This document shows positions 46,069-49,134 of a stretch of DNA of 49,237 nucleotides, one piece after another; the stretch's first letter is position 1; the number at the start of each line of letters is the position of its first letter. The DNA is from a virus: positions 1 through 49,237 of IMG/VR virus record IMGVR_UViG_3300032288_001331. The stretch is one strand, 5' to 3'. Made by a program: the position numbers and the translations under genes. The notes beneath the pieces were generated by a model. It saw only the letters and a list, made by a program, of their open reading frames with translations, made no database searches and had not been told where the DNA came from.

Positions 46069-46092
46069 AAGGGGGCGAAAGCCCCCTTTTTT
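46069..46092. terminator. bidirectional rho-independent terminator
   Basis: AAGGGGGC-GAAA-GCCCCCTT with T-runs on both strands. It separates convergent genes: gp32 on + and the hub gene on -, whose TAA overlaps it. Confidence 0.93.
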
Positions 46093-48214
46093 ATACCATG
46101 TTGGCTGCGCCAAAGTCGAAATTACCACCCAAGGCACTATCACCAACATTTTGAAATCTAGCTCTTGCTACAGCACGTTCAAAGCTGGGTGACTTGAACA
46201 CCTTTTCTGTCGCGGCAGCAGACGCATCAAGTGAATTATAACTTTCACCAGAATTTGTATATGTTGGCATCGGTGGGCTTATAGGTTGTGTTTGTTCAGG
46301 TATGGTATTCTGCTGCACGACAACTTCTGCTGCTCTCTGAGGTTCAGGTCCAATTTCATTTGGATTATTTCTATAACCCTTCGAACCATTATCAACCTCT
46401 ACTTTACCTGTATTAGGATCAAACTTCATGGATTCTTTCGAGTTCATGGTGAAAGCTGGTTTGCCTTGACCATCAAAAGCAATCATATCATCACGACGAA
46501 GTTTGTTCTTGTCGAGTGCATAGACCTGTAGTTTATCCGCATCGGTCTCTAAATCACCACCATCAGCCATAGAAGGCATTTCTTCTATCGTTGGTGCAGA
46601 TACAACATTGTGTTGTGCAATTCTACCATATGCTCTACCAGAAAAATGCACACCATCTTCAGCATCGGCTGTGAATGATCTATTACTTCTATATGTCAGA
46701 CCGCTATCTTGTGCAGACTGTCTCATAATAGCATCAATCTGTTCAGAGTTGGCATCCCATGTCTTTGTTGATTTGGCTGGACCATGAACACTGACATTGA
46801 AGCCTCTTTCATCAGCCAGTTTCTTGATGCGAGCCATCTGTTCTGCATAGAGTTTAGGGTCTACAACGCCGCCAGCCGCATCGTTTGTGCCACCATAAAT
46901 CTGTACAGTCGCACCTCTCGGTACGTTTTGTAGTTGACTGAGCAAACCAGGATCAGTAAATCTCTTACCACTTACAGCCAGATTATTTGCTCTTGATGCC
47001 ATGGCCACACCTTGACCAATGCTATCACCAGCCACATAAAGATTTGAGTTTCTACCTCTTGAGGCTGTAACATCTACAGTGGCTTGTGGTGCTCTCTGTC
47101 TTTCAAGTGCGCCAGCCAATTGCTGTTCTTGCTGACCTCTTGTTCTTGCAATGATCGCTTCTCTCACTTGCTCATCAGTAGCTTCTGTACCAAAGTTATA
47201 GCTGCGAGTGGCTGCATACGCATTAGGTATTTCTCTTTGTGCATGGCCTGTTCTTGCAATCGTGTTATTTACCTTTTCGCGAGGATTCTCAAATTCATAA
47301 GTTAATGTTCTTGAACCGTCGGCTATAGTATCTTTTGTGGCATTTCTCAATGCACTAGCAGATTTTGGAAATTTACCAGAGAAGGCTTCATGAACCATAT
47401 AGCGACCTTGACCTTCGGCGCTGTTTCGATCATAACCATTCTCTTCAAGCCACTTAAACATGTCTGTTTTTCTACCAACACCTGGTCTAGGGTCGCGAGC
47501 ACCATAGATACCATAACCAGTATCATTATCATGTCTGAGTGTAGGATTGAATCCGCTTTCCTGTTGAACTTGACCTGAGAGTAGAGCCACAGCATAAGGA
47601 ATATTTTCGTCAGGTACACCTTTTTTACGGAGTTCGTCTGCAAAGGCTTTCTGAATGATTTCTTTGTTGCTTCGTCCTGTTATCAAATTCTTTCTAGCAA
47701 CATCAATATCAGTTTGAGTTGGTTCGATTGCTGTCATTCTATAGCTTTCTTTACCACCCTCACCTGTGACCTTTTCAATACCAGCTCTCTTCAGATCATC
47801 AACCGATATGTCTTTGAGAAAGGCTACGCGAGGGTCATCTACAGATATGGTACCCTTCTTAAGTTCTTCGTATGCGGCCTTTTGTTCTGATGTGAGTGAG
47901 GCTATTTTTTGCTGTACAGCAGGGTTTGATCCACCACCGCCAAGGTCTCTCTTTGTTCCTACACTGACATCACTCTTGTCACCTGGTTGTTTATTTTGCC
48001 ATGTGCCTGTTGTCAGACTTTCTAATTTTCTACGATTGTCTGTACCTGGTGTATAGGGGAAAGCATTGGCCAGTTCTACGGGCGTGAAGCTAGAAAGAAG
48101 TCTTCTACCCTCAGTTGAGTCAAGAAGCTCAAATCGTCTTGAGACGTTGAGGTCCATCAATTTTCTATAGTCAATGGTTAGATTTTGAAATCTATTATCT
48201 TTGGTTCTTGCCAT
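46091..48214 (-). CDS. virion hub protein with phage tail lysozyme and SGNH hydrolase domains
   Basis: A 707-residue protein. The N-terminal 160 residues are structural and charged. Residues about 195-330 form a phage tail lysozyme domain: VPYAVALLSGQVQQESGFNP (catalytic Glu), HDNDTGYGIYGARDPRPG, GRYMVHEAF. Residues about 390-540 form an SGNH hydrolase: AGDSIGQGV (Ser nucleophile), YGGTNDAAGG, DGVHFSGRAYG (Asp-His). The rest is a flexible acidic tail. Such proteins sit at the baseplate or tail tip and cut the wall during DNA entry; the SGNH part may remove acyl groups from surface sugars or peptidoglycan. Directly downstream of the tail-chaperone pair. Confidence 0.82.
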   Translation of the reverse strand: MARTKDNRFQNLTIDYRKLMDLNVSRRFELLDSTEGRRLLSSFTPVELANAFPYTPGTDNRRKLESLTTGTWQNKQPGDKSDVSVGTKRDLGGGGSNPAVQQKIASLTSEQKAAYEELKKGTISVDDPRVAFLKDISVDDLKRAGIEKVTGEGGKESYRMTAIEPTQTDIDVARKNLITGRSNKEIIQKAFADELRKKGVPDENIPYAVALLSGQVQQESGFNPTLRHDNDTGYGIYGARDPRPGVGRKTDMFKWLEENGYDRNSAEGQGRYMVHEAFSGKFPKSASALRNATKDTIADGSRTLTYEFENPREKVNNTIARTGHAQREIPNAYAATRSYNFGTEATDEQVREAIIARTRGQQEQQLAGALERQRAPQATVDVTASRGRNSNLYVAGDSIGQGVAMASRANNLAVSGKRFTDPGLLSQLQNVPRGATVQIYGGTNDAAGGVVDPKLYAEQMARIKKLADERGFNVSVHGPAKSTKTWDANSEQIDAIMRQSAQDSGLTYRSNRSFTADAEDGVHFSGRAYGRIAQHNVVSAPTIEEMPSMADGGDLETDADKLQVYALDKNKLRRDDMIAFDGQGKPAFTMNSKESMKFDPNTGKVEVDNGSKGYRNNPNEIGPEPQRAAEVVVQQNTIPEQTQPISPPMPTYTNSGESYNSLDASAAATEKVFKSPSFERAVARARFQNVGDSALGGNFDFGAANMV

Positions 48215-48412
48215 TTATTTTCTTCTTGCTGAGGCCATCTGATCACGGCGCTGTTCATCTACTTTCTTGATATGTTCTTTTAGCATATCAAGGTATATAA
48301 ATCTCTCCCAAGGCATCATTTCTTCTAGCTCATTTAAGCTATATTTGTGATGCTGCATCATGGCAAAATTAGTCTTAAAGAAATTTGTCAGCCTGTCATA
48401 GCTAAACATCAT
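48215..48412 (-). CDS. small tail assembly chaperone-type protein (gp51-like), probable frameshift partner
   Basis: A 65-residue protein (MMFSYDRLTNFFKTNFAMMQHHKYSLNELEEMMPWERFIYLDMLKEH) of a family adjacent to gp26 in T4-like phages. Its own ATG overlaps the upstream stop (ATGA), but a T7 slippery run just before that stop puts this frame in -1 register, so a gp26 fusion is also possible. The T4 equivalents gp26/gp51 act in hub assembly. Confidence 0.72.
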   Translation of the reverse strand: MMFSYDRLTNFFKTNFAMMQHHKYSLNELEEMMPWERFIYLDMLKEHIKKVDEQRRDQMASARRK

Positions 48413-49134
48413 TGAAAAAAACTTGAGAAATCTCGGTACTCCTTCCTGTGCTTAGTCTTGCACTTTGGGCATTCTGTGTCGATATCGACCACAAAATAAG
48501 GAAAGTTATCTATAAACATCTCAAGTTTTGAATACTGGTTTTCTGACAGATTCTCAATAAACTCTACTATCTCTTTCTTCGTCACATCTTTAAGGGTATA
48601 GATATCATCACCCTTCTGTATCATCTCAATACAAGATGCGATGATCTTAATCTTTCTATCAAAAACATCTTCACCAACTTCAATGATCTTCATGATAGAA
48701 TAGTTCGGATACTTCATCTTCACAAACATACCACCACCAAGGTTTATGTTCGATTCTATACCTTCTTGTTTGACCACTCTACAATTAGTGAGGTCTAGCT
48801 CACCATCATAGACATGACCACATTTCTTATCATCAATAACAGCATTGCAAGTAAACTCTAATGCTATTGATTCACCCACAGACTTCGCTCTGAGTGCGAT
48901 GAAAAGAAAATCAACATCAAAGAATGGCAACTTCTCTACATCAACACCTTCAGTCAATATACAATTATTGATGACCTGTTTGGTCGTGTTGACGATATCG
49001 TTTACATCGTTTGATTCAGCCGCAATGAGCAGCATCTTCTCTTCTTTAACCTTGAACGGGCGAACTTTGATCTCTTGCCCAGTAGAAGGAATTTTCAAGT
49101 CATAGATAGGTAAGTCTATCTTCGGTAAAGCCAT
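48409..49134 (-). CDS. 26: gp26-like baseplate hub/tail chaperone
   Basis: A 241-residue protein with the pattern of T4-like gp26/T4_baseplate proteins: MALPKIDLPIYDLKIPSTGQEIKVRPFKVKEEKMLLIAAES, VINNCILTEGVDVEKLPFFDVDFLFIALRAKSVGE. A zinc-binding part is suggested by CNAV...KKCGH and CPKCKTKH. It assists assembly of the central hub or tape measure. Ribosome site GAGAGGTTATT before ATG 49134. The end CAAGTTTTTTTCAATGATG has T7 at 48415-48421. Confidence 0.85.
   Translation of the reverse strand: MALPKIDLPIYDLKIPSTGQEIKVRPFKVKEEKMLLIAAESNDVNDIVNTTKQVINNCILTEGVDVEKLPFFDVDFLFIALRAKSVGESIALEFTCNAVIDDKKCGHVYDGELDLTNCRVVKQEGIESNINLGGGMFVKMKYPNYSIMKIIEVGEDVFDRKIKIIASCIEMIQKGDDIYTLKDVTKKEIVEFIENLSENQYSKLEMFIDNFPYFVVDIDTECPKCKTKHRKEYRDFSSFFQ

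Follow-up and report, generated by a model that had tools for sequence, protein, structure and literature searches.

A conserved poly-T slip site and putative −1 frameshifting in a gp26/gp51-like tail assembly chaperone gene pair of an uncultivated virus

Two overlapping reading frames in the window (the whole stretch of DNA analyzed, an IMG/VR virus record of 49,237 bases) very probably encode tail assembly chaperones in two forms: a short TAC-N, homologous to phage T4 gp26, and a longer TAC-NC, to which a gp51-like domain would be added by −1 frameshifting. The arrangement has two of the features by which G/GT-type pairs are recognized: an in-register slippery sequence lies near the 3′ end of the short ORF, and the −1 frame continues from it without a stop into a second domain.

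Results

Slip site and predicted products

On the minus strand, the gp26 frame ends TCA AGT TTT TTT CAA TGA. The first T of the heptamer (48421) occupies codon position 3, the register required for X XXY YYZ slippage, and a −1 slip gives TCA ATG ATG TTT and then continues through the 65-residue ORF, for a predicted gp26/gp51-like fusion of 306 aa with the junction RDFSSFFSMMFSYD (Table 1). An earlier note on this DNA had proposed both the slip from the T-run into the 65-residue frame and a junction peptide ending SSFFSMMFSY; the first was confirmed in the sequence, and the second proved correct on translating the −1 join.

Table 1. Features of the putative frameshift locus (window coordinates)
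Feature	Position	Strand	Remarks
gp26 homologue, TAC-N (short form)	48409..49134	minus	241 aa; PF12322, phrog_150, AF2 model
Slippery heptamer T TTT TTT	48415..48421	minus	zero-frame register; first T 10 nt before gp26 stop
TAC-C (gp51-like), −1 frame extension	48215..48415	minus	66 aa counted from first shifted codon TCA; phrog_634, phrog_150 C-terminal columns
Annotatable 65-aa ORF inside TAC-C extension	starts ATG 48412, ends 48215	minus	
Shine-Dalgarno-like sequence AGGAAGGAG, candidate stimulator	48439..48447	minus	ends 17 nt before slip site
Next gene, 707-aa protein	46091..48214	minus	phage tail-lysozyme PF18013 and weak GDSL-lipase match

Runs of seven T are not rare in the window (16 observed, against 33 expected from shuffling); their number is below expectation, so the run itself proves nothing. 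The case therefore rests on position, register, and conservation, which, judged by sequence comparison, exceed chance.

Conservation of the slip site

The gp26 genes compared were drawn from named phage records as well as 80 IMG/VR loci and clustered at 70% identity, and conservation was counted over the 37 clusters (gp26 <70% identical) outside the Ackermannviridae. The note had named a T-run not conserved in relatives as a ground for refutation, and the comparison came out in favor of the slip site: a zero-frame T TTT TTN near the gp26 end, 7–31 nt before the stop, was kept in all 37, as TTTTTTT in 18, TTTTTTC in 17, and TTTTTTA and TTTTTTG in one each. In every one of these clusters the −1 frame is also open at the slip and into the homologous domain (L060 is cut by the contig end). 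They include cyanophages, a Pelagibacter phage, Sinorhizobium and Rhizobium phages, an Ochrobactrum phage, and a Vibrio phage. Phe-Phe pairs at other positions of these genes served as a control; 5/36 of them are encoded as T TTT TTN (Fisher p ~1e-15, not corrected for phylogeny). The codon preceding the conserved Phe-Phe always has T as its last base, whichever residue it encodes (S, D, N, R, G, A, F).

In Pelagibacter phage Mosig (L083:1294-2025), the zero frame continues for 8 more codons past T TTT TTC, and the overlap of the two reading frames is larger than in other phages.

Different sequences occupy the gp26 end in some relatives. Six loci from Ackermannviridae and related Vibrio phages (L086, L088, L090, L091, L092, L093) lack the T TTT TTN heptamer there and have NTTTTY before the stop (GTTTTT, CTTTTT, GTTTTC, ATTTTC, CTTTTC), with a −1 ORF carrying a TAC-C-like YS..EI..MPWH motif (hhalign E 7e-5, one sequence); this ORF is unannotated in phiMAM1 and Kuttervirus UTK0005. 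NTTTTY could be a shortened version of the slip site, comparable to that in Vandenendeviridae. In Streptococcus phage vB_SagM-GXN1 (L100:2600-3050), a gp26-like ORF ending CGT CCC CGA TTT GAC TAA may be a +1 frameshift version: past CCC C, the +1 frame stays open and leads into a protein whose YSVTDIESMS motif resembles that of TAC-C (hhalign E 2e-4).

Start codons of the −1 domain

If the second domain were normally translated on its own, it would need a start codon. In nine clusters (L066, L068, L072, L073, L080, L083, L094, L097, L098) there is no ATG, GTG, or TTG in the −1 frame for 14–19 residues after the slip, and for these nine slippage is the simplest route to the domain. A tenth cluster (L096, S-CAM1) has its earliest such codon, a TTG, at residue 8. 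GenBank annotations omit TAC-C in S-WAM1, S-CAM1, and ACG-2014e, and give it a late start in S-RIM2 and ACG-2014a.

In the window, TAC-C has its own ATG, overlapping the gp26 stop (CAATGATG). One alternative to frameshifting is translational coupling, in which ribosomes terminating on gp26 would be restarted by the ATGATG lying over its stop, releasing a free 65-aa gp51-like protein and leaving the T-run incidental. The TGA/ATG overlap is real, and most close relatives have an ATG 1–3 residues past the slip. This ATG in the window has no Shine-Dalgarno sequence at normal spacing, however, and in many relatives that lack any start codon there, the T-run is retained and the frame is still open. 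The codon before Phe-Phe is fixed for a final T despite the changing residue, and T4 carries both domains fused in gp51. Coupling as the whole explanation is thus improbable, but a free C domain may be produced by re-initiation in the window in addition to the fusion.

Slippage of RNA polymerase on the T-run, with fusion protein made from mRNAs of altered U number, is less probable still and was rejected: bacterial slippage is known at T or A tracts about nine bases long (Atkins et al., 2016), but the run here is seven, and in about half of the clusters, with T TTT TTC/A/G, it is six, too short for efficiency, while its conservation obeys the ribosomal heptamer rule.

Protein families and folds

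The gp26 homologue matches PF12322 (T4_baseplate, E=5e-56) and phrog_150 (E=3e-61), and the 65-aa protein has a match to phrog_634, annotated as “baseplate hub assembly catalyst” (E=3e-23). The latter also matches the gp26-family profile phrog_150, over its C-terminal columns 236–281 (E=4e-6), because T4 gp51 is itself an in-frame union of PF12322 and the C domain: in its 249 aa, PF12322 covers residues 1–201 (E=8e-55), and the C domain follows in frame (phrog_634, E=8e-24; hhalign E=6e-6). On these homologies, the window pair belongs to the T4 gp26/gp51 family, with both the PF12322 domain and the gp51 C-terminal domain present. T4 gp26 is of the same family but consists of PF12322 alone. As far as domain make-up indicates, gp26 and gp51 of T4 are the short and the long form, each with a gene of its own; the two genes are divergently placed, without the frameshift predicted for the window. 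Use of such a site by T4 itself was considered and rejected: downstream of gene 26 lies gene 25, the slip site is missing, and the −1 frame carries no C domain. T4 gp26 (L082:2486-3109) also weakly matches phrog_1140, the T4 gp28 “baseplate hub distal subunit” family (E 9e-4), which hints that the hub region holds a third relative.

Sequence searches of the PDB with both alignments gave no relevant match. For the N-terminal domain of an AlphaFold2 (AF2) model of gp26 (pLDDT 88), the best PDB match is 3fgx, an uncharacterised Bacillus protein (Z 8.0), and the HK97 tail assembly chaperone 2ob9 matches with Z 7.4 (Foldseek E 0.4, probability 0.85); Z values of 7.4–8.0 are moderate, in a range where chance arrangements occur. 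The resemblance of the modeled fold to the HK97 chaperone is support for a chaperone role, not proof of it. For the C domain alone, whose predicted structure is of low confidence (pLDDT 74, pTM 0.46), there was no convincing fold match, the top match in BFVD being an Acinetobacter phage “baseplate hub assembly catalyst” (E 0.84).

A Shine-Dalgarno-like element upstream of the slip site

A downstream stimulatory RNA structure was sought and rejected (window MFE z=−0.7; no consensus pairs in 36 homologues). Upstream, in 19 window-like clusters, a Shine-Dalgarno-like element pairs with the anti-Shine-Dalgarno sequence at a mean of −6.0 kcal/mol, compared with −2.1 for synonymous sequences; with z=−9.2, its strength goes beyond what the encoded amino acids demand. 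The element ends 17 nt before the slip site in these clusters. The V-R codons at the element are GTG AGG in 13/13 cases, against pooled usages of 0.17 and 0.15. In 18 cyanophage-like clusters, the element lies about 9 nt from the slip site (z=−3.7).

A tentative and somewhat doubtful proposal is that frameshifting in the window clade would be tuned by this conserved element 17 nt 5′ (GTG AGG TAT or AAG GAG TAC), with the roughly 9 nt of the cyanophages representing a second spacing class of one stimulator. The 17 nt of the window clade exceeds the spacing of E. coli dnaX, where the Shine-Dalgarno sequence is about 10 nt from the slip site. Stimulators of this kind are known for dnaX and for IS elements (Atkins et al., 2016). 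No report of such a conserved element upstream of the slip site came up in the literature searched, in which Vladimirov et al. (2022) is represented through citing papers. Alternatively, the element could help re-initiation at the overlapping ATG, giving three products from the locus.

Discussion

Relation to known systems

The earlier note had held that the gp26/gp51 pair is not usually described in terms of frameshifting in T4-like phages, which is outdated. Two later papers, on PRFect (PMC10885494) and on phage Adele (PMC12846349), credit the T4-like tail assembly chaperone genes to Vladimirov, Gautam, and Davidson (2022; Virology 566:9-15), citing that study for slip signals of the poly-T type in the TAC-N genes of T4-like phages and for the existence of T4-like phages with separate short and fused long genes. 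As those papers report it, the genes and the mechanism are the same as those proposed here; what differs is that the window is a diverged, uncultivated record, its gp26 <40% identical to the best-ranked phage records. The window site is a new example of an already published T4-like frameshift, not a new idea. The abstract of the 2022 study reportedly names T4 genes 26 and 51, with frameshifting kept in several T4-like groups.

The slip site of lambda, G GGA AAG, is unlike the T TTT TTT of the window. What the two systems would share is a short chaperone with a rare −1 frameshift extension, encoded by adjacent ORFs (lambda gpG/gpGT; Atkins et al., 2016, PMC5009743). They also differ downstream: the gene after the window pair, whose ATG directly abuts the TAC-C stop, is not clearly a tape measure gene but encodes the lysozyme/GDSL protein, and a tape measure gene was not identified elsewhere in the 49,237-base window either. 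A −1 frameshift at poly-T GTTTTT, at the end of TAC-N, has also been described for phage Adele and the Vandenendeviridae (PMC12846349), which are of another phage family and have a hexamer in place of the full T TTT TTN heptamer of the window.

Proposed mechanism

Assuming that the heptamer functions as its register suggests, most ribosomes would terminate at the TGA and release TAC-N, while a minority would slip −1 on T TTT TTT and produce TAC-NC, with the conserved C-terminal domain added. The roles suggested by lambda gpG/gpGT would be coating of the tape measure protein for the N domain and recruitment of tail-tube subunits for the C domain. Neither product would be retained in the virion; gpG and gpGT are both lost from the mature lambda virion (Atkins et al., 2016). 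From the arrangement of the pair and its relatives, we infer slippage at a low frequency and a chaperone function for both products. The original suggestion of fused and unfused tail assembly chaperones is supported by the conservation of the site, the missing start codons in relatives, the predicted gp26 fold, and the domain make-up of T4 gp51.

Implications

One practical consequence concerns annotation: in many cyanophages the “gp51” gene goes unannotated or is called too short, the domain having no start codon of its own. For the T4-like phages more generally, the window extends the tail-chaperone frameshift to a diverged, uncultivated lineage. Frameshifting in G-T genes has been described as widely conserved “except T4” (Atkins et al., 2016); the present locus lends support to the idea that the two genes of T4, formerly the exception, arose by division of a single frameshifting gene.
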